DNA from: Thermus arciformis | Lineage (GTDB): Bacteria > Deinococcota > Deinococci > Deinococcales > Thermaceae | NCBI RefSeq assembly: GCF_900102145.1 | Contig: NZ_FNBC01000015.1 | Span: forward strand, 1-53,511 | Direction of reading: 5' to 3' | DNA length: 53,511 bases | In this document: positions 10,597 to 21,795 of the stretch, in pieces | Numbering within the stretch: position 1 is the stretch's first letter | Layout of the letters: each line of letters begins with the position of its first letter | Notes under the pieces: generated by a model | What the model was told of the DNA's origin: nothing | Databases searched by the model: none | The model's input: only the letters and a program-made list of their open reading frames with translations | Made by a program: the position numbers and the translations under genes

Positions 10597-11165
10597 TCCG
10601 CTACCTGAGGGGACGGGTTTTGGGGAAGGAGGCCGAGGGGTTCTCCCTCCTGGTGGGGGGGATGGGGTTCTTCCTCCAGGCCCCCGCGCCCTTCCTAGGG
10701 GCCCTAAGGGAGGGGGAGGAGGTGGAGGTCCACACCCACCTCCAGGTCCGGGAGGACGGGCTTTTCCTCTACGGCTTCCCCGATGGGGAAAGCCTCCGCC
10801 TCTTTGAACTCCTCCTCTCGGTGAGCGGCGTGGCGCCCAAGGAGGCCCTCTCCCTCCTCTCCACCCTCCCCCCCAGGCTCCTGGCCCAGGCCCTGGCGGA
10901 AGGGGATGCCCGCCTCTTGGCCTCGGCGAGCGGCGTGGGGAAAAGGCTCGCCGAAAGGATCGCCCTGGAGCTCAAGGGCAAGGTGCCCCCCCACCTCCTC
11001 GGGGAGAAGGCGGAAAGCGAGGCCGCCCTCGAGGCGGTGATGGCCCTCGCCGCCCTTGGGTTCAAGGAGGCCCAGGCCCGGGCGGTGGTCCTGGACCTCC
11101 TGGCCAAAAACCCCAAGGCCAAGGCCCAGGAGCTCATCAAGGAGGCCCTGAAGCGGCTCCGCTAG
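10593..11165 (+). CDS. ruvA: Holliday junction DNA helicase subunit RuvA
   Basis: A 190-residue tetrameric junction-binding protein that loads RuvB for branch migration. N-terminal OB fold about 1-62 (MIRYLRGRVLGKEAEGFSLL). Two helix-hairpin-helix segments: LSVSGVAPKEALSLLS and LASASGVGKRLAERIALELK. The C-terminal three-helix domain that contacts RuvB begins near 140 (EAVMALAALGFKEAQARAV). The start at 10593 is set by the MIRYLRG start typical of RuvA and by the ATGA overlap with the upstream gene, which implies translational coupling. Its last 29 bases overlap the 3' end of the histidine kinase on the other strand. The window contains neither ruvB nor ruvC. Confidence 0.95.
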   Translation: MIRYLRGRVLGKEAEGFSLLVGGMGFFLQAPAPFLGALREGEEVEVHTHLQVREDGLFLYGFPDGESLRLFELLLSVSGVAPKEALSLLSTLPPRLLAQALAEGDARLLASASGVGKRLAERIALELKGKVPPHLLGEKAESEAALEAVMALAALGFKEAQARAVVLDLLAKNPKAKAQELIKEALKRLR

Positions 11166-12351
11166 GGAGGACGAGCCGGGCCACGAGGCCCGAGGGGGGG
11201 TTGGGCCTAAGCTCAAGCCGCCCCCCGTGGGCCTCGGCCACCTTCTTGGCCACGGAAAGGCCCAGCCCCTCCCCGGGTTTGGGGGAGGCCCGGTGGAAGG
11301 GTCGGCCCGCCTCCTTCAGGGCCTCCTCGGGCATCCCCGGGCCCTCGTCCTTCACCTCCAGGACGAAAGACTCCCCCTCCTGGGAAAGCCGCACCTCCAC
11401 CCCCTTCCCCTCCCCGTGGAGGAGGGCGTTTTGCAGGAGGTTCCTGAGGGCCTGGGCGAAAAGGAGGGGGTCGCCTTCGTAGGGGAGGGTTTCGGGTCCC
11501 TGGTAGGGCACCCCGAAGGCCCTGGCCTCCTCCCGGACGAGGGCGGCAAGGTCCAAGGGCACGGGCGTCACCCGGCCTTCCCGCGCCAGGAGGAGGAGGG
11601 CCTCCACCAGGCGCTTCATGCGGAGAAGTTCCTCCTTCACCGCCTCCTGAGCCTCCTGGGGAGGAAGGTAGCCCGCTTCCGCCGCCTCCAGCTGGGCCAA
11701 AGCGGCGGCCACCGGGGTCCTGAGCTCGTGGGCCGCGTCCCGGGTGAAGCGCTTCTCCCGCTCCAGGAAGGCCTCGAGGCGTTCCAGCATGTGGTTGAAG
11801 GCCTCGGCCAAGGCCTTGAGCTCCCCACCCCCCTCCGGGGGCACCCGGTGGGAGAGGTCCTGGGAGTCCGCCACCCGCCGCGCCACCTCCGTGAGGCGGG
11901 AGAGGGGCCGTAGAGCGGCCCCGGCGAGGCGGGTGGCGAGGAGGGCGAAGGCCAGGGTGAGGGCCGCCCCCGTGGCGAAGAGGGCCAGGCGGAAACGGGA
12001 GAGGGCCAGGAGGGCCTCAGGCTCGTACCGGGCCAGGGTGAGGGTGCCCCCAGGCGCCTCCATGACCCAGACCCGCCACCCCTCCTTCCAGTACCGCCCC
12101 GGGGCAAGGGGGGGTAGGTCGGGGAAGCCGGGGCTTTGGGTCCTTGTCCCGCCTTGGACCAGGCGGAAGGCGAACTCGCCCCTAGGGCCAGGCCGTCCCT
12201 CGGCGAGGGCGCGGGCGTAGAAGAGGAGGGAGCGGTCTAGGTCCAGCTCCAAAAGGCGCCGGAAGGCCACGTAGCTCAAGGCCCCCTGGAAGAAGAGGGC
12301 AAGCCCAATGGAAAGGGCGAAGAAGAGAGCAAGCCGCGTCCTAAGGCTCAT
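11137..12351 (-). CDS. Two-component sensor histidine kinase
   Basis: A 404-residue membrane kinase. TM1 about 7-29, a short periplasmic loop of about 90 residues, TM2 about 121-142, then a HAMP linker (LRPLSRLTEVARRVADSQDL). The H-box is RDAAHELRTPV with phospho-accepting His208. The N-box is LLQNALLHGEG, the G1 box KDEGPGMPEE and the G2 box GLGLSVAKKVAEAHGG, so the ATPase is intact. Its start overlaps the response-regulator stop by 11 bases, which pairs the two. The small sensor loop gives no ligand clue. The gene sits back-to-back with apbE across the promoter region at 13 kb, which may hint at an envelope redox or metal signal, though this is only context. Confidence 0.9.
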   Translation of the reverse strand: MSLRTRLALFFALSIGLALFFQGALSYVAFRRLLELDLDRSLLFYARALAEGRPGPRGEFAFRLVQGGTRTQSPGFPDLPPLAPGRYWKEGWRVWVMEAPGGTLTLARYEPEALLALSRFRLALFATGAALTLAFALLATRLAGAALRPLSRLTEVARRVADSQDLSHRVPPEGGGELKALAEAFNHMLERLEAFLEREKRFTRDAAHELRTPVAAALAQLEAAEAGYLPPQEAQEAVKEELLRMKRLVEALLLLAREGRVTPVPLDLAALVREEARAFGVPYQGPETLPYEGDPLLFAQALRNLLQNALLHGEGKGVEVRLSQEGESFVLEVKDEGPGMPEEALKEAGRPFHRASPKPGEGLGLSVAKKVAEAHGGRLELRPNPPSGLVARLVLPSGAASGPP

Positions 12352-13000
12352 GGCCGAGCCGGTACCCCCCGGGCACGGTGCGCACCACCTCGGGGAAGAG
12401 CTTCTGCCGGAGGTAGTGGACGTAGACCTTCACCGCCCCCACCTTCTCGGGGTCGCCGAAGACCCGCTCGGCGAGCTCCTCGGGGGCGAAGACCCGGCCC
12501 GGGTGGAGGAGGAAGGCCTCCAGGAGGGCGAACTCCTTCAGGGAGAGGTCCACCCGCTTTCCCCCCAGGTAGACCCCCCGCCCCGCCAGGTCCACCTCCA
12601 AGGGGCCGAGCCGCACCCGGGAGGCCTTCACCTCCGAGGCCCGGCGGAGGAGGGCCCGCACCCGGGCCAAAAGCTCCTCCAGGTGGAAGGGCTTCACCAG
12701 GTAGTCGTCCCCGCCCAGGTCCAGGCCCTGGACGCGGTCCTCGAGGGCGTCCCGGGCGGTGAGGAAGAGGATGGGCCCCTTGTAGCCCGCCTCCCGCGCT
12801 TCCTCCGCGAAGCGGAAGCCGCCGTCCTCGTCCTCGGGAAGGCGCACGTCCAGGACCATGAGGTCGGGCTCCAGCTCCAGGAAGGCCTCCCGGGCTTCCT
12901 CCAAGTTTTTGGCCCAGCGGACCCCGTAGCCCTGGGCGGCGAGGGCCCGGGCCACCGCCTGCCCCAGGCGGGGCTCGTCCTCCAGGAGGAGCACCTGCAC
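12341..13000 (-). CDS. OmpR/PhoB-family response regulator
   Basis: A 219-residue regulator. The receiver domain holds the acidic pocket Glu7/Asp8, phospho-acceptor Asp51 (LDVRLPED), Thr81 and Lys103 (VKPF). The C-terminal winged helix (about 125-219) includes LSLKEFALLEAFLLHPGRVF and the end VRTVPGGYRLG. Start is GTG at 13000. A GATACT -10-like hexamer ends six bases upstream and no conventional SD is present, so the message is probably leaderless. GGTTA repeats at 13022-13064, between this gene and apbE, could be its own binding sites. Confidence 0.92.
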   Translation of the reverse strand: MQVLLLEDEPRLGQAVARALAAQGYGVRWAKNLEEAREAFLELEPDLMVLDVRLPEDEDGGFRFAEEAREAGYKGPILFLTARDALEDRVQGLDLGGDDYLVKPFHLEELLARVRALLRRASEVKASRVRLGPLEVDLAGRGVYLGGKRVDLSLKEFALLEAFLLHPGRVFAPEELAERVFGDPEKVGAVKVYVHYLRQKLFPEVVRTVPGGYRLGHEP

Positions 13001-13006
13001 CCCCTA

Positions 13007-13079
13007 AGTATCCCCCCTGAGGGTTAGGAGGGGGTTATGGGCCGGGGTTAACGGCGGTCTAACCCTTTGACCCTACCCT
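13007..13079. promoter_or_regulatory. Divergent promoter region with GGTTA repeats
   Basis: GGTTA occurs at 13022-13026, 13033-13037 and 13046-13050, with an inverted copy TAACC at 13060-13064, giving start-to-start spacings of 11, 13 and 14 bases. Roughly helical spacing of short repeats is how OmpR-family dimers bind, so autoregulation and control of apbE by the adjacent regulator is a reasonable guess. -10-like elements flank the cluster: GATACT (minus, 13007-13012) for the regulator and TACCCT (plus, 13074-13079), seven bases before the apbE ATG. Confidence 0.45.
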
Positions 13080-13086
13080 TCCTTCC

Positions 13087-13842
13087 ATGGGCCGGTACGG
13101 GGCCAGGTGGGAAGGGGTTTTGGGGAGCTTCCTGGAGGTGCAGCTCCTCGCCCCTCCCTGGCGGGCCCGGAGGGCCTTTGGGGCGGTGCTGCGGGAGGTG
13201 AGGCGTTTGGAAGGGGTCTTCAGCCGCCACCGGGAAAGCGAGCTCACCCGCCTGGTGCGCCAGGGGGGCGGGAGGCCGAGCCCGGAGATGCGGGAGGTGC
13301 TGGCCCTCGCCCTCCACCTCCAGGAGGCCACGGGCGGGGCCTTCCACCCGGCCCCCGCCCACGGCGGGGAGGCCTTCCGCTTCGTGGGCGAGGAGGTGGA
13401 GGTCTTGGCGCCCCTGGACCTGGACGGCCTGGCCAAGGGGTACATCGCCGACAAAGGGGCGGAGGCCGCCCTGAAGGCCGGGGCCAGGGCCGCCTTGGTG
13501 AACCTGGGGGGGGACCTGGCGCGAAGGGGCCCGGGGCGGGCCGAGGTGTTGGTGGAAGCCCCCACGGGCCCCGACAACGCCCCGCCCGTCCACCGCTTCC
13601 TCCTGGAGGAGGGGGGCGTGGCCACGAGCGGGGTGCGGCACAAGGGGCCCCACCTCCTGGACCCGAGGACGGGAAGGCCCGCCCTTGGCCTTCAGGCCAC
13701 GGTGCTCGCCCCCTCGGCCCTCCTCGCCGACGGCCTCGCCAAGGCCCTTTTCGTCCTTAAGGAGGAGGCCTTCCCCGTCCTCCGGGCCTTCCGCGCCCAA
13801 GGCCTCCTCCTCACCCCCCAAGGCCCCGTGGCCGGCCCCTAA
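13087..13842 (+). CDS. apbE: FAD:protein FMN transferase (ApbE family)
   Basis: A 251-residue member of the family that attaches FMN from FAD to Thr/Ser of exported or membrane redox proteins. Visible are the FAD/Mg-binding core LDLDGLAKGYIADKGAEA, the segment GGVATSGVRHKGPHLLDPRTG and the family's typical C-terminus ADGLAKALFVL. There is no signal peptide or lipobox, and it is shorter than the usual exported enzymes of about 330 residues, so it either works in the cytoplasm or its start is mis-set; TACCCT seven bases upstream favours the ATG at 13087. The following DUF2271 and PepSY genes suggest its flavinylation target lies in this operon. Confidence 0.88.
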   Translation: MGRYGARWEGVLGSFLEVQLLAPPWRARRAFGAVLREVRRLEGVFSRHRESELTRLVRQGGGRPSPEMREVLALALHLQEATGGAFHPAPAHGGEAFRFVGEEVEVLAPLDLDGLAKGYIADKGAEAALKAGARAALVNLGGDLARRGPGRAEVLVEAPTGPDNAPPVHRFLLEEGGVATSGVRHKGPHLLDPRTGRPALGLQATVLAPSALLADGLAKALFVLKEEAFPVLRAFRAQGLLLTPQGPVAGP

Positions 13843-13852
13843 GGAGGTGGAG

Positions 13853-14395
13853 ATGCTGAAGCGCTACTACAGCCGGAGGAGCTTTTTCCGCAGGGTGCTG
13901 GGCGGGGCGCTCGCCCTGGGCCTTTCCCGGGCCCAGGCGGGGAAGCCCTGGCCCCAGGGGTTCGTCCTCGAGGTCGCCTTCGCCTACGAGGGCGGGGGCT
14001 TCCGCTACCGGGCCCCCTACGTGGCGGCCTACGTGGAGGACGAGAAGGGGAACCTGGTGAGGACCCTGGCCCTCTTCCTCATGCCGGGGAAGGGGGAGCG
14101 CTGGTGGGACGCCTTGAGGCGCTACTACCTCCTGGGGGACGTGGCCGCCATGCGCGCCCTCTCCGGCCCCACCCGCCCCCCGGGGCGGTACGCCGTGGCC
14201 TGGGACGGCAAGGACGAGCGGGGAAGGACGGTGACCCAGGGCGTCTACTACGTCTGCGTGGAGTACGCCCGGGAGCACGGCCCCTACGAGCTTTTCCGGG
14301 AGAAGGTGGAGCTTTCGGACAAGCCCTTCCAGAAGGCCTACACGCTGAAGGGGGAGCTTAAGGAGGTGGTCCTTGACTACCGCAAGAAGGCCTAG
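13853..14395 (+). CDS. Tat-exported DUF2271 protein
   Basis: A 180-residue protein starting at ATG 13853 with AAGGAGGTGG upstream, ten bases after apbE. The N-terminus YYSRRSFFRRVLGGALALGL is a twin-arginine signal (Arg8-Arg9) with probable cleavage after AQA (about residue 29). The mature part has the pattern I associate with DUF2271: YVEDEKGNLVRTLALF, the segment WDGKDERGRTVTQGVYYVCV, and EYAREHGPYELFREKVEL. Tat export implies folding in the cytoplasm, often with a cofactor. The apbE - DUF2271 - PepSY order is a known association in bacterial extracytoplasmic flavin systems. The molecular function is unproven. Confidence 0.85.
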   Translation: MLKRYYSRRSFFRRVLGGALALGLSRAQAGKPWPQGFVLEVAFAYEGGGFRYRAPYVAAYVEDEKGNLVRTLALFLMPGKGERWWDALRRYYLLGDVAAMRALSGPTRPPGRYAVAWDGKDERGRTVTQGVYYVCVEYAREHGPYELFREKVELSDKPFQKAYTLKGELKEVVLDYRKKA

Positions 14396-14987
14396 GTCTA
14401 AAGCGGGCGCCTGGCGGAGCCGGGCCTACACCCTAAGCCGCACCCTCCACCTCTACCTCTCCCTCCTCGCCTTCCTCACCCTCCTCTTCTTCGCCGTCAC
14501 CGGCCTCACCCTGAACCACCCCGAGTGGTTCGGGGAGGGCGCCCCGAGGAAGTTTTCCGGGACCCTCCCCGGCGCGCCCTACCTCGAGGGCGAGGCCGTG
14601 GACTGGCTCCGCCTGGCGGAGGACCTGAGGGCCTTGGGCCTTAGGGGGCGGGTGGCGGACCACGGGGAGGCGGGGGAGGAGGTCTGGGTCTCCTTCCGCG
14701 CCCCCGGCTACGCCGCCGACGCCCAGGTGGACCCCAAGACGGGGGCCTACCGCCTGGTGGTCACGGACCACGGCCTGGTGGCCCTGCTCAACGACCTGCA
14801 CAAGGGGCGGGACACCGGGGGGGGCTGGAGGGTCTTCCTGGACCTCTCCGCCCTCTTCCTCGCCCTGGTGAGCCTCACCGGGCTCCTCCTGGGGGTCCTC
14901 CTCCCCAAGACGCGGAAGGCCGCCCTCCTCGTCCTGGGGCTTGGGGCCTTGGCCTTTTTGGCCCTGGCCCTCTGGGCCTCCTTGTAG
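14373..14987 (+). CDS. PepSY-associated transmembrane protein
   Basis: A 204-residue membrane protein. TM1 about 22-45 (LHLYLSLLAFLTLLFFAVTG), a periplasmic PepSY-like segment with PEWFGEGAPRKFSG and PGYAADAQVDPKTGAYRL, then TM helices about 155-175 and 184-203. Histidines near membrane faces (TLHLYLS, NDLHKGRD) are reminiscent of the heme-ligating histidines of PepSY ferric-reductase-like proteins. The farthest upstream start is TTG at 14373, 23 bases inside the DUF2271 gene. No ATG or GTG exists before TM1, so a start nearer TM1 would have to be an unusual codon. Likely the membrane electron conduit of the apbE operon. Confidence 0.75.
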   Translation: MTTARRPRSKAGAWRSRAYTLSRTLHLYLSLLAFLTLLFFAVTGLTLNHPEWFGEGAPRKFSGTLPGAPYLEGEAVDWLRLAEDLRALGLRGRVADHGEAGEEVWVSFRAPGYAADAQVDPKTGAYRLVVTDHGLVALLNDLHKGRDTGGGWRVFLDLSALFLALVSLTGLLLGVLLPKTRKAALLVLGLGALAFLALALWASL

Positions 14988-14989
14988 CC

Positions 14990-15484
14990 CTACCCCAGGT
15001 CGTCCAGGGCCTCGCGGAAGCCCCGGGGAAGGGCCAGGTACCCCCCTTCCGCCACCGCCAAGGGGAAAAGACGGGCCCAAGGCCCCTCCAGAAGGGCCAC
15101 CCGCTTCCCCCGAAGGAGGCGGGTGCCCTCAGGGGGCAGGACCTCTAGGCCCTGGGGAAAGAAGGCCAGGGCCTCCCCGCTTGGGCCTCCCTCCCCCCGG
15201 TCCAGGAAGAGGGCGCGGGCCTCGAGGTAGCCCAGCATCCGGGTCCGGTGCATCTCCCGGCGCAGGGCCTGGAGGGCCTCCAGGTCCTGGGCCCCCTGCC
15301 AGAGGAGGAGGTCGGCCTCGGCGGAAAGCCCCACCAGGCTGTAGGCCCCAAGAAACCCCCCTTTGCCCCGGAAGCGGGCGAGGAGGGCGGCAAGCTCCTC
15401 CTTCAGGTGCTCCTGGTGCTCGGCCTCGAGGCGGCGGAACTCCGGCAGGAGGCGGAAAAGCCCAAGGGCCCAGAAAAGCTCCAT
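14990..15484 (-). CDS. Chlorite-dismutase-like single-domain protein (HemQ paralogue)
   Basis: A 164-residue protein four bases downstream of hemQ on the same strand. Its core (LGAYSLVGLSAEADLLLWQG, then LEALQALRREMHRTRMLGYL) aligns by eye with one dimeric alpha/beta-barrel half of the Cld/HemQ fold. The second half is short (GPWARLFPLAVAEGGYLALP) and the heme-binding His segment of HemQ (MRAHGETGRKY) has no counterpart. It therefore probably does not bind heme in the usual way. ATG 15484 directly follows the hemQ stop, so the two are co-transcribed. I infer a heme-pathway accessory role, not a demonstrated one. Its stop is two bases from the stop of the convergent PepSY gene. Confidence 0.7.
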   Translation of the reverse strand: MELFWALGLFRLLPEFRRLEAEHQEHLKEELAALLARFRGKGGFLGAYSLVGLSAEADLLLWQGAQDLEALQALRREMHRTRMLGYLEARALFLDRGEGGPSGEALAFFPQGLEVLPPEGTRLLRGKRVALLEGPWARLFPLAVAEGGYLALPRGFREALDDLG

Positions 15485-15488
15485 GCCC

Positions 15489-16241
15489 CTAGCTTACGCC
15501 CAGGAAGCGGGCCAGGGCCTCCTCGTCCAGGTACTTGCCCACGAAGAAGGGCCCGAACTCCCCGTAGCGGGCGGAGACCTCGTCAAAGCGCATCTCGTAG
15601 ACGATCTTCTTGAACTGGATGGGGTCCTCGCTGAAGAGGTCCACCCCCCACTCCCAGTCGTCCAGGCCCTGGGCCCCGCTGATCACCTGCAGGACCTTCC
15701 CCTGGTACTTCCGGCCCGTCTCCCCGTGGGCCCGCATGAGGCCCGCCCGTTCCTTGGCGGGGAGCAGGTACCAGTTGTCCTGCCCCTGGCGGCGCTTGTT
15801 CATGGGGTAGAAGCAGACGTACCCCGACTTGGGGACCCTGGGGGTGAGGCGGGGCTTCACGTAGGGGGCCTCGGGGTCCAAGGGCTTCTCCTGGCTTCCC
15901 AGCTCCACCACGGAGTAAAAGCCGTAGGCCGGGAGGAGGTACTGGGCGAAGAGGCTCCGGTTTAAGGCGGCCTCCAGCTCCAGAAGCTCGTCCAGGCCCT
16001 CCCGGAGGTTGAGGAAGAGGAGGTCCGCCTTCTGGGTCACCACCTGGTAGACCCCAAAGGACCCCCGCCCCTCGGCCTCCACCTGGCCCCAGGCCCCGAG
16101 GAGCCCCCGAAGCCCCTCCCAGGCCTCCCGGCGCTCCTCGGGGGAAGCCTTGCGCCAGCGGGGGAAGTCCAGCCTGCGGAAATCGTGGAGGACGTGCCAG
16201 CCCTCGAGGGTGAAGGTGGGCTCGGGAACGTGCCCTTCCAT
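15489..16241 (-). CDS. hemQ: Coproheme decarboxylase HemQ (chlorite dismutase family)
   Basis: A 250-residue protein that decarboxylates coproheme III to heme b in the coproporphyrin-dependent pathway of Gram-positive and Deinococcus-Thermus bacteria. Visible are GSQEKPLDPEAPYVKPRLTP, YVCFYPMNKRRQGQDNWY and the proximal heme ligand His172 in MRAHGETGRKY, followed by the strongly conserved SGAQGLDDWEWGVDLFSEDP. A longer open frame exists, but ATG 16241 (MEGHVPEPTFTLEGW) matches remembered Thermus HemQ starts, and TATAGT lies seven bases upstream, giving a leaderless message. It is followed by the Cld-like paralogue. Confidence 0.93.
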   Translation of the reverse strand: MEGHVPEPTFTLEGWHVLHDFRRLDFPRWRKASPEERREAWEGLRGLLGAWGQVEAEGRGSFGVYQVVTQKADLLFLNLREGLDELLELEAALNRSLFAQYLLPAYGFYSVVELGSQEKPLDPEAPYVKPRLTPRVPKSGYVCFYPMNKRRQGQDNWYLLPAKERAGLMRAHGETGRKYQGKVLQVISGAQGLDDWEWGVDLFSEDPIQFKKIVYEMRFDEVSARYGEFGPFFVGKYLDEEALARFLGVS

Positions 16242-16247
16242 GCCCTT

Positions 16248-16279
16248 CACTATACGGCGGGGGGGCTTTGGGTATAGTG
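16248..16279. promoter_or_regulatory. Symmetric divergent leaderless promoters of hemQ and mscS
   Basis: The -10 elements are TATAGT on minus (16249-16254, seven bases from hemQ ATG) and TATAGT on plus (16273-16278, six bases from mscS ATG). Together with one flanking base on each side they form a perfect 8-bp inverted repeat, CACTATAC / GTATAGTG, separated by 16 bases. No -35 consensus is visible for either gene, since each -35 region falls on the opposite -10. Confidence 0.75.
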
Positions 16280-16284
16280 CCCCC

Positions 16285-17340
16285 ATGGAGGCTTGGCCGC
16301 AACTCGTCCTCACCCTCCTGGTGGCCTGGCTTCTGGGCCGGTACGGGGCGAGGCTTCTGGCCGCCTTGGGGCGCCTCACCCCTAGCGAAGGGGACGACCG
16401 CTTCTTCCGCCTCCTGGGCCTCCTCTGGTGGGGGGTGGTCCTCCTCCTCGCGGGGAGCTACCTCGCCCACGCCCTGGGCCTTCCCCAGGAGCCCTTCCGC
16501 TCCTGGGGGGCGGGGCTCGCCGCCTGGCTTGGGGAGCGGGGGCTTGCCGCCTTGGCCCTTTTGGCCCTCACCTTCTTGGGCTACCGCCTCGTCCCCCTCC
16601 TCCTCCGGGGGCTCCCCGCCCCCGAGGGGGTCCACACCCGGGAGGCGGTGAGGCGGCGCACCCTGAAGGTGGTGTCCGAGTCGGTCCTGAAGGGGGTGGT
16701 CCTCCTCCTGGGGGGGCTTTTGCTCCTCTCCAACCTGGGCTTAAACGTCACCGCCCTCCTGGCGGGGGCGGGGGTGGCGGGGCTTGCGGTGAGCTTCGCC
16801 GCGCAAAACCTCCTTCGGGACTACATCAACGGCTTCTTCATCCTCCTGGAGGACCAGTACGGGGTGGGGGACATCGTCCAGATCGGCGGGGTGGGGGGGC
16901 AGGTGGAGCGCTTCACCCTGCGGCTCACGGTGCTTAGGGACCTCGAGGGCCGGGCCCACTTCATCCCCAACTCCGAGGTGCGCCAGGTGACCGTGCTCAC
17001 CCAGGAGTGGAGCCGGGCGGTGGTGGACGTGGGGGTGGCCTACAAGGAGGACCTGGACCGGGTCTTGGAGGTCTTCCGGGACGAGGCGGCGCGCTTCTCT
17101 CAAGACCCCGAGTGGCAGGCGCGGTTCACGGCCCCCCCCGAGGTCCTGGGGGTCCAGAACCTGGCGGACTCCGCCGTGGTCATCCGGGTCCTCTTCGCCA
17201 CCAAGCCCGCGGAGCAGTGGGCCGTGGCCCGGGAGTTCCGCCGCCGCATCAAAAACCGGCTGGACCGGGAGGGCATAGAGATCCCCTTCCCCCACCTCAA
17301 GCTCTACCTGGGGGAGGCCCTCCGGCTGGAAAGGGGGTAG
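16285..17340 (+). CDS. mscS: Small-conductance mechanosensitive channel, MscS family
   Basis: A 351-residue protein. Four or five TM helices: about 4-24, 42-65, 78-101, 125-147 and the pore helix. The pore-lining and beta-domain signature is LLAGAGVAGLAVSFAAQNLLRDYINGFFILLEDQY (residues within about 150-195) followed by VGDIVQIGGVGGQVERFTLR and HFIPNSEV. The C-terminal cytoplasmic alpha/beta domain ends FRRRIKNRLDREGIEIPFPH. It protects against hypo-osmotic shock. Start ATG 16285 is six bases after TATAGT, so leaderless. The coiled-coil gene follows after ten bases and may be co-transcribed. Confidence 0.92.
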   Translation: MEAWPQLVLTLLVAWLLGRYGARLLAALGRLTPSEGDDRFFRLLGLLWWGVVLLLAGSYLAHALGLPQEPFRSWGAGLAAWLGERGLAALALLALTFLGYRLVPLLLRGLPAPEGVHTREAVRRRTLKVVSESVLKGVVLLLGGLLLLSNLGLNVTALLAGAGVAGLAVSFAAQNLLRDYINGFFILLEDQYGVGDIVQIGGVGGQVERFTLRLTVLRDLEGRAHFIPNSEVRQVTVLTQEWSRAVVDVGVAYKEDLDRVLEVFRDEAARFSQDPEWQARFTAPPEVLGVQNLADSAVVIRVLFATKPAEQWAVAREFRRRIKNRLDREGIEIPFPHLKLYLGEALRLERG

Positions 17341-17350
17341 GCTAAGGGGG

Positions 17351-19603
17351 ATGCGGGACGTCTACGGGGAGATCCTGGAGGCCCTCCGCCCCCACCTGGG
17401 GCCCCGGGCCCACGCGGTGCTGGACGAGGGGCTGAAGCGGCTGGGAAAGCGCCCCCATGAGCTCACCCCCAAGGACGGGGAGGTCCTCCTCAAGGGCCTC
17501 GTCTTCCGCGAGCTCCAGGCCCGGCTGAGCCCGGGGGAGGCCCGGCAGGTGGTGGAAGGGGTCCTGGCCCGCCTCAAGGAGGAAGCCCCCGGCCTCGAGG
17601 CCCTGGAGGAGGCCTTAAAGCGCTTCGGCCTCTACCTGGACTGGCCCGAGGTGGCCCGTCTCCGGACCCTGGTGAACCACCTCCGCCAAAGGCCCGACCC
17701 CAAGCTCTTCCGCGAGGCCCAGGAACTGCGGGAGGCCCTGGAGGAAAAGCTGGAGGAGGCCCTTTTGCGCCAGGCCAAGGACCTGGCCCACCTGGAGGAG
17801 AGCCTGGAAAGGGTCCGGCACCTGGGGGGGCCCAAGGTGCGCAGGCTGGAAAGCCTCGTGGAGATGGTGCGCCAGGCCCAGGCGGAGGGCCTCTTGGCCC
17901 AGGCGGAGGTGGAGCGGGCGAGGAAGCTCGCCCTGGAGCTGCGCAAGCTCCTGGAGTCCAGCGTGGCCCAGCCCCCCACCCTGCCGGAGATCGTCTTTGA
18001 AACCGTGGAGGAGGCCCCCAGGCACCCCACGGAGGCCTACCTCACCGTGGAGGAGGCGGGGGACCTGGAAGGGGAGCTGGTCATTGACCTGGAAGCCCTC
18101 CCCGAGGAGGCGGCGAGGCGACTCCAGGCCCTGGAGGTGGAGGAGGAAAGGCGGAGGCTGGAAGCCCTCCGCGCCCGCTACGCCCCCCTCCTGGAGCGGG
18201 CCACGGTGAGCCCCCTCCTGGCGGAGGTGGAGGCCCTCCTCCAGGCGGGAACCCCCGCGGGGGAGAAGCTCGCCCTCCTGGAAAAAGCCTTCCAGGAGGC
18301 CGAGGCCAACCTGCGGGCGGAAAAGCGCGCCCGGCTCATCCAGCTCTCCGAGGCCCTTAGGGCCCTGCCCCTGCCCGAGGAGGCCAAGGCCCCTCTGGAG
18401 AGCGCCTTGCGCCTGGCGGAGGAAACCCTAAAGGAGGGGGGCCTCCCCGACCTCCTGCCCCTGGAAGGGGAGCTTAGGCGGCTGGAGGAGGAGGCCAAGC
18501 GCCTGGAGGAAGAGGCGAAGCGCCTGGAGGAGGAAAGGCAGGCCCTGAAGGGGGAGCTCGCCCAAAAGGGCGAGGCCTTCCTCCCCCTCCTTCGGGAGCT
18601 TGAGGCCCTTCCCCAGGAGGCCCTTCCCGAAAGGCTCCCCGAGATCAAGGCCCGCTACGCCCAACTCCTCAAGGCCCAGGGGGAGGAGGCCGCCCTGAAG
18701 GCCAAGCTGGCCGAGGCCTCGGAGGCCCTGGAGGCCCTGCGGGAGGAGGCCCAGGCCCTGGGGCTGGAAGGGGCTTGGGAGGAGGCGAAAAAGGCCCTGG
18801 AGGAAGGGAGGCTTGAGGACCTCGAGGCCCTGCGGAAGGCCCTGGGGGAGGCCAGGGCCCGGGCCCGGGGGATGGCCCTGGAAGAGCTGGGCCGCCTCCA
18901 GGCCCTGGCGGAGCGCTTCCGGGGCTTCGGGGGGGAGGGGGTGTTGCGGGCCATTGAGGAGGAGAAGGCCAAGCCCCTGCCCGACCCCGCCCCCATCGCC
19001 CGGGCCCTCCAGGCCCTGAAGCGCCGGCTGGAGACCAAACGGGAGGAGCTTTTCACCCGCCTCACCGCCTTCTTCCAGGCCCACGCCCGCCTCCAGGGCT
19101 TCCAGAGCGAGACGGGCCGCCGCCTAAAGCCCCTCCTCCCGGTGCTGGAAAGCGCCCGGGAAAAGCTCCCCCGCCTCGGGCCCCAGGGGCTCCTCCAGGT
19201 GGAAAGCACCCTGGCCCAGGCGGAAGCCCTCCTGGGGGAGCTGGAGAAGGAGGCGGAGGCGGCCAAGGCCGTGCTCCGGGAGCTCAAAGGCGCGGACCTA
19301 GAGGCCCTTTTGGAGGCCCTGGGAACCCCTCCCCCTCCCCAGGACCTGGACCGCCTGCGCCTGCCCGGGGTGGAGGCCCTGGGCTACCTGGAAGGGGACC
19401 TCCCCCTGCCCAAGGAGCCCCTCTGGAAGCTCAAGGAGGCCCTGGACCGCCTGGACGAGGCCCTGGCCCAAAGGCGGGGCCCCGCGGCCTTGGCCTTCGG
19501 GGGGAAGGCCCTGGTCCTCGCCCCCCTAAAGGGGAAGACCCTGGTGGCCCTCCTGGAGCGCCCGGCCCTTTCCGCCTTCCTCCTGGAGCTTTCGGGAAGC
19601 TAG
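17351..19603 (+). CDS. Large Ala/Glu/Leu-rich coiled-coil protein of unknown function
   Basis: A 750-residue protein, dominated by Leu, Glu, Ala and Arg. Residues about 1-95 look globular (VYGEILEALRPHLGPRAHAV, GEVLLKGLVFRELQARL). From about 100 to 660 it is almost continuous heptad-like helix (for example RLEEEAKRLEEEAKRLEEER near 375-395). The last 70 residues again look folded (RGPAALAFGGKALVLAPLKG, ending SAFLLELSGS), vaguely like a roadblock-type alpha/beta end. There is no signal peptide, TM helix, Walker motif or zinc motif. It sits between mscS and rel. I do not recognise the family; a scaffold or filament-like role is a guess from architecture. Confidence 0.8.
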   Translation: MRDVYGEILEALRPHLGPRAHAVLDEGLKRLGKRPHELTPKDGEVLLKGLVFRELQARLSPGEARQVVEGVLARLKEEAPGLEALEEALKRFGLYLDWPEVARLRTLVNHLRQRPDPKLFREAQELREALEEKLEEALLRQAKDLAHLEESLERVRHLGGPKVRRLESLVEMVRQAQAEGLLAQAEVERARKLALELRKLLESSVAQPPTLPEIVFETVEEAPRHPTEAYLTVEEAGDLEGELVIDLEALPEEAARRLQALEVEEERRRLEALRARYAPLLERATVSPLLAEVEALLQAGTPAGEKLALLEKAFQEAEANLRAEKRARLIQLSEALRALPLPEEAKAPLESALRLAEETLKEGGLPDLLPLEGELRRLEEEAKRLEEEAKRLEEERQALKGELAQKGEAFLPLLRELEALPQEALPERLPEIKARYAQLLKAQGEEAALKAKLAEASEALEALREEAQALGLEGAWEEAKKALEEGRLEDLEALRKALGEARARARGMALEELGRLQALAERFRGFGGEGVLRAIEEEKAKPLPDPAPIARALQALKRRLETKREELFTRLTAFFQAHARLQGFQSETGRRLKPLLPVLESAREKLPRLGPQGLLQVESTLAQAEALLGELEKEAEAAKAVLRELKGADLEALLEALGTPPPPQDLDRLRLPGVEALGYLEGDLPLPKEPLWKLKEALDRLDEALAQRRGPAALAFGGKALVLAPLKGKTLVALLERPALSAFLLELSGS

Positions 19604-19610
19604 CGGGTGC

Positions 19611-19616
19611 TACACT
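19611..19616 (+). promoter_or_regulatory. -10 element of rel (leaderless)
   Basis: TACACT ends seven bases before the GTG at 19624. No SD precedes that GTG, so initiation on a leaderless transcript is expected. No good -35 is visible; the spacer region is the 3' end of the coiled-coil gene. Confidence 0.6.
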
Positions 19617-19623
19617 AAAAGTA

Positions 19624-21795
19624 GTGGTCGTTCACGACGCCCTCTGGGAACGCCTGGCGGCGCACCTCGCCTACCTCTCCCCCAAGGAGTGGGAGAAGGT
19701 CCAGGAGGCCTACCGCTTCGCCGAGGAGGCCCACAGGGGCCAGGTGCGAAGAAGCGGGGAGCCCTACATCACCCACCCCGTGGCCGTGGCGGAGATCCTG
19801 GCCTCCTTGCGCATGGACGCCGACACCCTGGCCGCAGGCCTCCTCCACGACACCCTGGAGGACTGCGGGGTGGCGCCCGAGGAGCTGGAGAGGCGCTTCG
19901 GCCCCACGGTGCGCCGCCTGGTGGAGGGGGAGACCAAGGTCAGCAAGCTCTACAAGCTGGCGAACCTCGAGGGGGAGGAGCGCCGGGCGGAGGACCTCCG
20001 CCAGATGTTCATCGCCATGGCGGAGGACGTGCGCATCATCATCGTCAAGCTGGCGGACCGCCTGCACAACCTCCGCACCCTGGAGCACATGCCCCCCGAG
20101 AAGCAAAAGCGCATCGCCCAGGAGACCCTGGAGATCTACGCCCCCCTGGCCCACCGCCTGGGGATGGGCCAGCTCAAGTGGGAGCTGGAGGACCTCTCCT
20201 TCCGCTACCTCCACCCCGAGGCCTACCAGGGGCTCCTCCTTCGCCTAGAGGAGACCCAGGAGGCCCGGGAGCGCCTGGTGAAGAAGGCCATGGCCCTCCT
20301 GGAGGAGGCCTTGAGGCGGGACGAGCTCCTCCAGGCCCAGCTCCAGGGCTTTGAGGTCACGGGCCGGCCCAAGCACCTCTACTCCATCTGGAAGAAGATG
20401 GAGCGGGAGGGCAAGGCCCTGGAGCAGATCTACGACCTCCTGGCGGTGCGGGTGATCCTGGACCCCAAGCCAAGCCCCACGGAGGACCTGCGGGAGAAGC
20501 AGGTCTGCTACCACGTCCTGGGCCTGGTCCACGCCCTCTGGCAGCCCATCCCGGGCCGGGTCAAGGACTACATCGCCGTGCCCAAGCCCAATGGCTACCA
20601 GAGCCTCCACACCACGGTCATCGCCCTGGAGGGCCTGCCCTTGGAGGTGCAGATCCGCACCCAGAAGATGCACCGGGTGGCGGAGTACGGCATCGCCGCC
20701 CACTGGCTCTACAAGGAAGGCCTCACCGACCCCGAGGAGCTCAAAAGGCGGGTCTCCTGGCTCAAGAACATCCAGGAGTGGCAGCAGGAGTTCAGTAGCT
20801 CCCGGGAGTTCGTGGAGGCGGTGACCCGGGACCTCCTGGGAGGGAGGGTCTTCGTCTTCACCCCCAAGGGGCGGATCATCAACCTCCCCAAGGGGGCCAC
20901 CCCGGTGGACTTCGCCTACCACATCCACACGGAGGTGGGGCACCACATGGTGGGGGCCAAGGTGAACGGGCGCATCGTCCCCCTTTCCTACGAGCTGCAA
21001 AACGGGGAGATCGTGGAGATCCTCACCGCCAAAAACGCCCACCCCTCCAAGGGCTGGCTGGAGTTCGCCAAGACCCGGAGCGCCAAGAGCAAGATCCGCC
21101 AGTACTTCCGCGCCAGGGAGCGCCAAGAGACCCTGGAAAGGGGCCAGGAGCTTCTGGAGCGCTACCTGAAGCGCAAAGGGCTTCCCAAGCCCACGGACAG
21201 CCAGCTGGAGGAGGCGGCCAAGAGGCTTGGCCTCACCCCCTCCCCCGAGGAGCTTTACCTGGCCTTGGCCCTAAACCGCTTAACCCCCAGGCAGGTGGCG
21301 GAAAAGCTCTACCCCAAGGCCCTCTCCAAGCCGGAGAAGCCCAAGGCCACCCCCAAGAACCAGTGGGGCATCCGCCTGGAGCAAGACCTCGAGGCCCCCA
21401 TCCGCCTGGCCTCCTGCTGCGAGCCCATGAAGGGGGACAGCATCCTGGGCTTCGTCACCCGGGGCCGGGGGGTCACGGTGCACCGGGCGGACTGCCCCAA
21501 CCTGCGCCGCATCCTCCAGGGCCCCGAGGCGGACCGGGTCATCGGGGCCTACTGGGAAGGGGTGGGGGGGAAGGTGGCCACCCTCGAGGTCCTGGCCCAG
21601 GACCGGGCCGGGCTTCTCCGGGACGTGATGCAGGTGGTGGCCGAGGCGGGGAAGAGCGCCCTGGGCTCGGAGACCCGCATCCTGGGCCCCCTGGCCCGCA
21701 TCCGCCTCCGCCTCACGGTGCAAGACGGGGAGCGGGAGGCCCTGGTGGAGGCCCTAAAGGGGGTCAAAAGCGTCCAGGAGGTGCGCTGGGTGTAA
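19624..21795 (+). CDS. rel: Bifunctional (p)ppGpp synthetase/hydrolase (Rel/SpoT)
   Basis: A 723-residue stringent-response enzyme. The N-terminal HD hydrolase domain shows His51 (YITHPVAVAEILA) and HDTLED (His75-Asp76), with KLADRLHNLRTL completing the metal site. The synthetase domain includes RPKHLYSIWKKM, AVRVILD and PNGYQSLHTTVIA. Then come the TGS domain (GRVFVFTPKGRIINLPKGAT, VDFAYHIHTEVGHH), a conserved-cysteine region (RLASCCEPMKGDSILGFVTR) and a C-terminal ACT domain (VLAQDRAGLLRDVMQVVAE). Both catalytic centres are intact. GTG 19624 is supported by TACACT seven bases upstream. The last 32 bases overlap yjbQ on the other strand. Confidence 0.95.
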   Translation: MVVHDALWERLAAHLAYLSPKEWEKVQEAYRFAEEAHRGQVRRSGEPYITHPVAVAEILASLRMDADTLAAGLLHDTLEDCGVAPEELERRFGPTVRRLVEGETKVSKLYKLANLEGEERRAEDLRQMFIAMAEDVRIIIVKLADRLHNLRTLEHMPPEKQKRIAQETLEIYAPLAHRLGMGQLKWELEDLSFRYLHPEAYQGLLLRLEETQEARERLVKKAMALLEEALRRDELLQAQLQGFEVTGRPKHLYSIWKKMEREGKALEQIYDLLAVRVILDPKPSPTEDLREKQVCYHVLGLVHALWQPIPGRVKDYIAVPKPNGYQSLHTTVIALEGLPLEVQIRTQKMHRVAEYGIAAHWLYKEGLTDPEELKRRVSWLKNIQEWQQEFSSSREFVEAVTRDLLGGRVFVFTPKGRIINLPKGATPVDFAYHIHTEVGHHMVGAKVNGRIVPLSYELQNGEIVEILTAKNAHPSKGWLEFAKTRSAKSKIRQYFRARERQETLERGQELLERYLKRKGLPKPTDSQLEEAAKRLGLTPSPEELYLALALNRLTPRQVAEKLYPKALSKPEKPKATPKNQWGIRLEQDLEAPIRLASCCEPMKGDSILGFVTRGRGVTVHRADCPNLRRILQGPEADRVIGAYWEGVGGKVATLEVLAQDRAGLLRDVMQVVAEAGKSALGSETRILGPLARIRLRLTVQDGEREALVEALKGVKSVQEVRWV

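Follow-up and report, generated by a model that had tools for sequence, protein, structure and literature searches.

Gene content and layout of the locus

The window, a 53,511-nucleotide stretch of Thermus arciformis DNA (contig NZ_FNBC01000015.1), carries at 13087-14987 on the forward strand the genes for an ApbE flavin transferase, a twin-arginine DUF2271 protein and a PepSY_TM_like_2 membrane protein, in that order. All three score well above their Pfam cut-offs, at the place and on the strand reported in an earlier interpretation made from the letters of the DNA (the sequence-only reading). That reading had treated them as a single operon, and their spacing agrees, as apbE and the DUF2271 gene are separated by 10 bp and the DUF2271 and PepSY genes overlap by 23 bp. 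The TTG start of the PepSY gene is a guess; no ATG lies nearby. On the other side, hemQ is convergent with the cassette, with a short Cld-like gene in between. The coordinates of the sequence-only reading leave out the genes at 11137-13000, a linked two-component system that it did not pick up. Wherever the surroundings of an intact Thermus copy were read, a histidine kinase and a response regulator lie divergently upstream, and because this pair adjoins all of the intact Thermus cassettes examined, the real unit is one of five genes (Table 1).

Table 1. Features of the five-gene unit, its promoter region and the adjoining genes in the T. arciformis window
Feature	Position	Strand	Evidence or remark
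Sensor histidine kinase	11137..12351	-	Pfam HAMP, HisKA, HATPase_c
OmpR/PhoB-type response regulator, divergent from apbE	12341..13000	-	Pfam Response_reg and Trans_reg_C
-10-like element GATACT, near regulator start codon	13007..13012	-	Conserved in place in the intergenic regions of 14 relatives
Direct-repeat box GGTTAGGAGGGGGTTA	13022..13037	+	Probable response-regulator site; aligned in Thermus relatives
Facing box copy GGTTAGACCGCCGTTA	13049..13064	-	One mismatch; CTAAC...CTAACC conserved in Thermus
-10-like element TACCCT, 7 nt before apbE ATG	13074..13079	+	CCTACCCT conserved in all 15 aligned regions
apbE, FAD:protein FMN transferase, 251 aa	13087..13842	+	PF02424, 114 bits
DUF2271 protein, Tat signal (YYSRRSFF), 180 aa	13853..14395	+	PF10029, 95 bits
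Predicted flavinylation site S104-G-P-T107	14162..14173	+	Acceptor Thr codon 14171-14173
PepSY_TM_like_2 membrane protein, 204 aa, three TM helices	14373..14987	+	PF16357, 129 bits
Short Cld-fold gene, 164 aa	14990..15484	-	PF06778, 36 bits; neighbour, outside the unit
hemQ	15489..16241	-	NCBIfam NF008913, 322 bits; neighbour, outside the unit

Profile searches of the genome found one ApbE and one DUF2271 protein. Searches for FMN_bind, DUF3570 and NqrB/RnfD domains returned none; the DUF2271 protein is thus the only visible ApbE substrate among the families searched. The sequence-only reading had also described the chemistry of such cassettes as unproven, a view that is out of date: DUF2271 as an ApbE substrate and the ApbE/DUF2271/PepSY cluster were both published in 2021 (PMC8238504). 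In that work the DUF2271 protein of Amantichitinum ursilacus was flavinylated by its cognate ApbE upon co-expression, and mutation of the acceptor threonine to alanine abolished flavinylation. The name ‘PepSY-like systems’ was introduced there for clusters that combine ApbE and DUF2271, often together with DUF4198; an extracytosolic redox role is proposed for them (Meheust et al. 2021, PMC8238504). Members encode a protein of family PF16357 or PF03929 at a distance of up to five genes from an ApbE, FMN_bind, DUF3570 or DUF2271 protein and have at least one exported component, and this arrangement is found here. On its gene content the T. arciformis cassette belongs to these known flavinylation systems; its biochemistry is predicted. 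It differs in having neither a DUF4198 gene nor a TonB receptor beside it, in its apbE-DUF2271-PepSY order, and in its altered target motif and ApbE metal site. It also adjoins a dedicated two-component pair, whereas Fur control has been reported for the Caulobacter and Shewanella clusters. The family is known, and the new points are the lysine-bearing ApbE, the SGPT acceptor site and the regulator.

Inheritance, selection and the hemQ neighbourhood

Among 50 Thermaceae genomes, ApbE and DUF2271 are both present in 31 and both missing from 17, a co-occurrence far beyond chance. Only two genomes have a single partner: G031 retains a piece of ApbE, and G013 has only the DUF2271 protein. The latter is a nearly complete genome in which the DUF2271 gene (locus L021) is accompanied by a PepSY gene and ApbE was not detected. 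In eight cassette-minus Thermus genomes ruvA directly abuts the pair of short Cld gene and hemQ, forming an empty site for the five-gene block. Two further genomes hold remnants, G031, in which an internal deletion has fused the beginning of apbE with the terminal part of the PepSY gene, and G038, in which apbE, the DUF2271 gene and the start of the PepSY gene are deleted and the regulator is left. The effector genes thus break or vanish together, in two remnants and eight clean empty sites. In G046, apbE is read in two frames, which reflects a frameshift or a sequencing error. Median dN/dS values are 0.27 for apbE, 0.19 for the DUF2271 gene and 0.25 for the PepSY gene, as compared to 0.18 and 0.30 for the neighbours hemQ and mscS. 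By this measure the cassette genes are under purifying selection, and values within the range of the neighbours argue against decay and favour a working variant.

The sequence-only reading took the facing hemQ as a hint to function, and it could be supposed that the cassette serves heme metabolism together with hemQ, as the two adjoin in most cassette-bearing Thermus genomes and the PepSY product is a probable heme protein. We regard this as highly improbable. The cassette and its regulators lie away from hemQ in G048 and in the sister-genus genome G049, hemQ is unmoved in the eight cassette-minus genomes, and no hemQ adjacency was seen in Meiothermus or on Deinococcus plasmids. Because the cassette can lie elsewhere and hemQ stays in place without it, the neighbourhood is uninformative on function; a functional link to hemQ was rejected on synteny, and the proximity looks incidental. 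The short Cld gene also stays in place where the cassette is absent. The tandem Cld-fold genes at 14990-16241 consist of a full hemQ and a short gene that matches part of the family, and the pair is kept in most Thermus.

The block in G048 occupies a different place, with ends that coincide with the stop codons of the kinase and PepSY genes. Identity between G048 and this genome is 93% to the left of the block, 96% within it, 96.6% at another locus and 79% in the hemQ region. Horizontal transfer of the five-gene block between the two genomes, considered on the strength of 96% identity in the block against ~80% at hemQ, was dropped because the left region and the other locus are equally similar, so that the block matches the background level of identity and has moved, and it is the hemQ side that stands out. 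Within 14810-21738 of the window, identity to G048 falls, close to the 3' end of the PepSY gene, from 93-96% to 79%, a pattern which suggests recombination in one of the lineages, with replacement of the hemQ side. Farther afield, Deinococcus plasmids (L068, L074) show the same apbE-DUF2271-PepSY order, with no two-component pair adjacent in the annotated stretch. Directly upstream of apbE, Meiothermus encodes a protein that combines a Tat-like N-terminus with an intradiol-dioxygenase domain (PF00775; L187:5592-6392).

The predicted flavin transferase, its acceptor site and export

The structural model of the ApbE product (mean pLDDT 91) matches solved ApbE structures with TM-scores of up to 0.85 (best E 6e-15), in keeping with its family profile. 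Alignments show that the catalytic residues Asp215, Ser181 and His189 are kept, their roles being taken from FmnB (PMC8906456). Four residues after the aspartate, where a Mg-ligand threonine is expected, stands Lys219, which the sequence-only reading did not pick up; the counterpart of this position in FmnB, Thr305, was found to coordinate Mg in the complex with ATP (PMC8906456). Lysine occupies position 219 in 15 of 15 copies from Thermus and the sister genus, as compared to threonine in all 94 copies elsewhere (73/73 proteobacterial and 21/21 other Deinococcota). In addition, the protein is shorter by ~35 residues ahead of the LDLDGLAKG motif. With Lys219 in place of the Mg ligand, we class the protein as a variant ApbE whose activity is predicted only. 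No description of such a substitution was found in the literature searched.

The acceptor site of the DUF2271 protein is also altered. The sequence-only reading had proposed that the partners be checked for an Asp-x-x-Ser/Thr-Gly-Ala-Thr-like motif. In the DUF2271 protein the site reads R101-A-L-S-G-P-T107, so that the full D-x-x-[S/T]-G-A-[S/T] motif is absent, with arginine for the aspartate and proline for the alanine, and the acceptor threonine is retained as Thr107. This residue is unvarying in 122 of 122 aligned DUF2271 sequences. SGPT is the usual tetrapeptide in Deinococcota, as compared to SGAT in the proteobacterial sample, in which an aspartate precedes the tetrapeptide in 81 of 84 sequences and SPT variants are also present. 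The A. ursilacus protein has a [S/T]GA[S/T]-type site; it shares with the Thermus protein an acceptor threonine beside a cognate ApbE, but differs from it in the SGPT sequence, in the arginine six residues before the acceptor and in Tat export. Literature searches found neither a test of proline at the alanine position nor a description of RxLSGPT in place of DxxSGAT.

These departures raise the possibility that flavinylation was lost in Thermus, the Lys219 enzyme transferring no FMN and the DUF2271 protein partnering the heme protein in unmodified form. The lysine at the ligand position in all 15 copies, the shortened ApbE and the two motif changes all point that way. We nevertheless consider loss unlikely. 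The acceptor threonine is invariant and the catalytic triad of aspartate, serine and histidine is kept, apbE, like the genes around it, shows purifying selection, and gene losses remove the cassette genes together. Moreover, SGPT is usual also in relatives whose ApbE retains the threonine, and in the motif of a fumarate reductase an Asp-to-Ala change had a minor effect and an Ala-to-Val change left about half of the flavinylation (PMC12052999). A different activity, in which ApbE acts as an FAD pyrophosphatase that supplies flavin and leaves the DUF2271 protein unmodified, has a precedent in an FAD-hydrolysing Treponema homologue (PMC4767422), but appears quite improbable given that strict pairing with DUF2271 and an invariant acceptor threonine suit a transferase better. 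It is conceivable, albeit doubtful, that the flavin transferase of the Thermus lineage works with a lysine where a Mg2+ ligand would sit. Such a one-metal or metal-sparing ApbE would be matched to the SGPT acceptor site and to the loading of flavin ahead of Tat export.

The Tat signal that the sequence-only reading assigned to the DUF2271 protein holds up. Its N-terminus, MLKRYYSRRSFFRR, contains the motif given in Table 1, and a strict Tat motif occurs in 15/15 Thermus, 22/23 other Deinococcota and 1/84 proteobacterial copies, as determined by a genome scan that used a proteobacterial DUF2271 alignment and sampled Deinococcota and Pseudomonadota. The one Deinococcota copy lacking it is a fragment read in the wrong frame, and the lone proteobacterial match is a false hit upstream of the start; every Deinococcota DUF2271 protein with an assessable start carries the motif. 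The ApbE product, by contrast with its exported partner, has no hydrophobic or lipobox N-terminus and no membrane segment. The sequence-only reading was right that a signal peptide is absent, but the feature it puzzled over is not peculiar to T. arciformis, being the rule in the sampled DUF2271/PepSY cassettes, proteobacterial ones included. A hydrophobic N-terminus is missing from ApbE in 15/15 Thermus, 48/49 other Deinococcota and 70/73 proteobacterial copies, by a hydropathy test rather than SignalP and with uncertain start codons. Tat-exported DUF2271 and signal-less ApbE are paired in nearly all Deinococcota examined, a pairing for which no description was found in the literature searched. 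In proteobacterial cassettes (L070, L072, L073, L076-L155), ApbE has no recognisable export signal and the DUF2271 protein lacks a Tat motif and is apparently Sec-exported. A signal-less ApbE and Tat export therefore need not be causally linked.

FAD is cytosolic, and the Tat pathway moves folded proteins that are already loaded with cofactor. Together with the lack of a signal or membrane segment, this makes it improbable that ApbE is exported by an unrecognised route and flavinylates outside the membrane as in other bacteria, although its signal-less form accompanies non-Tat DUF2271 proteins in Proteobacteria too. A cytoplasmic site of action has been shown for the likewise signal-less ApbE of Klebsiella pneumoniae, which modifies a soluble fumarate reductase (PMC12052999); that substrate stays in the cytoplasm, whereas the Thermus substrate carries a Tat signal.

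The membrane protein, the promoter region and a proposed mechanism

The model of the PepSY protein (mean pLDDT 87) has a first transmembrane helix (residues 10-48), a PepSY domain, and second (150-176) and third (178-203) helices. The membrane-edge histidines noted in the sequence-only reading prove to be conserved, His26 in 122/122, His49 in 118/122 and His143 in 122/122 sequences. The positive-inside rule would place His49 and His143 on the outer side of the membrane and His26 on the inner side. A related architecture is found in FoxB, the ferrioxamine reductase of Pseudomonas aeruginosa (PDB 7ABW), a PepSY-like reductase that binds two hemes through histidine pairs (PMC11334425, PMC13038864). 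Both proteins have a PepSY domain between transmembrane helices and membrane-edge histidines, predicted in the Thermus protein to bind heme b, but the latter has three helices and only three conserved histidines per chain, as compared to two pairs in FoxB. The fold match is weak, FoxB ranking third in a Foldseek search with the PepSY model (E 0.1), and a PDB sequence search with the PepSY profile gave no match. The PepSY product is a probable heme protein, in which a second heme site could possibly form by dimerization.

The region between the regulator and apbE spans 86 bp. The position of TACCCT close to the apbE ATG, and of a -10-like element at the regulator start, suggests that both transcripts are leaderless. 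Between these elements lie a box with the pattern GGTTAG-N3-GNGGTTA and its facing CTAAC..CTAACC copy. Both are found, slightly altered, in the Thermus relatives, and G049 has shortened forms of them. The perfect form, GGTTAGNNNGNGGTTA, occurs once in the genome, at the site upstream of apbE, and from its sequence and conservation the direct repeat is probably bound by the response regulator. Box sites were counted only if perfect or conserved in a promoter, which leaves aside the one-mismatch sites that contigs 47 and 50 of the T. arciformis genome contain; a wide regulon was dropped, as one-mismatch matches are at or modestly above a reversed-pattern control in most genomes. A heavy-metal identity for the two-component pair was likewise dropped, its best NCBIfam scores being far below cut-off, and the pair was left without an assigned signal. 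Among cassette-minus Thermus genomes, orthologues of the regulator (>=85%) occur only in the two with cassette remnants. In Meiothermus a related regulator pair lies ~2 kb upstream and is kept even where the cassette is missing, which makes the tight regulator link a Thermus feature.

The flavin/heme electron-transfer module put forward in the sequence-only reading is plausible, given the operon, the Tat signal and the conserved PepSY histidines. We propose, with a probability of roughly two in three, that the locus encodes a PepSY-type flavinylation system with its own two-component switch. ApbE would remain in the cytoplasm and move FMN from FAD onto Thr107 of the DUF2271 protein, which the Tat pathway would then export in its flavin-bearing form. 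The three-helix PepSY protein is predicted to hold at least one heme b, with His49 and His143 at the outer face and His26, which may pair across a dimer, at the inner one, and would take electrons from a donor in the membrane or cytosol and hand them to the FMN. The flavin may in turn reduce a substrate outside the membrane, ferric iron by analogy, or possibly copper. Iron limitation elicits a response from a Caulobacter PepSY-like locus, which comprises a flavin-dependent reductase, DUF2271 and DUF4198 (PMC11870441). The response regulator would bind the repeats between the divergent promoters and control both sides. Flavinylation is not assured, because Lys219 replaces an otherwise unvarying metal ligand and the motif departs at two positions, and G013, which keeps DUF2271 and PepSY without a detectable ApbE, counts against this proposal. 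If the system works, ApbE can do without one of its metal ligands and accept a looser target motif, a point of relevance to the prediction of flavinylated proteins and to flavin-tagging tools. It would also be a heat-stable example, and would reveal, for one class of exported flavoproteins, the place of flavin attachment. The link to a two-component pair provides a handle on what such systems sense and reduce outside iron uptake.

A tolC-tolC-MFP-ABC-ATPase efflux operon is not beside the kinase in the T. arciformis window. In several relatives (L172, L175, L176, L180, L182, L184) it lies beyond the kinase with regulator-type repeats in its promoter, and the two-component switch may also control efflux there.
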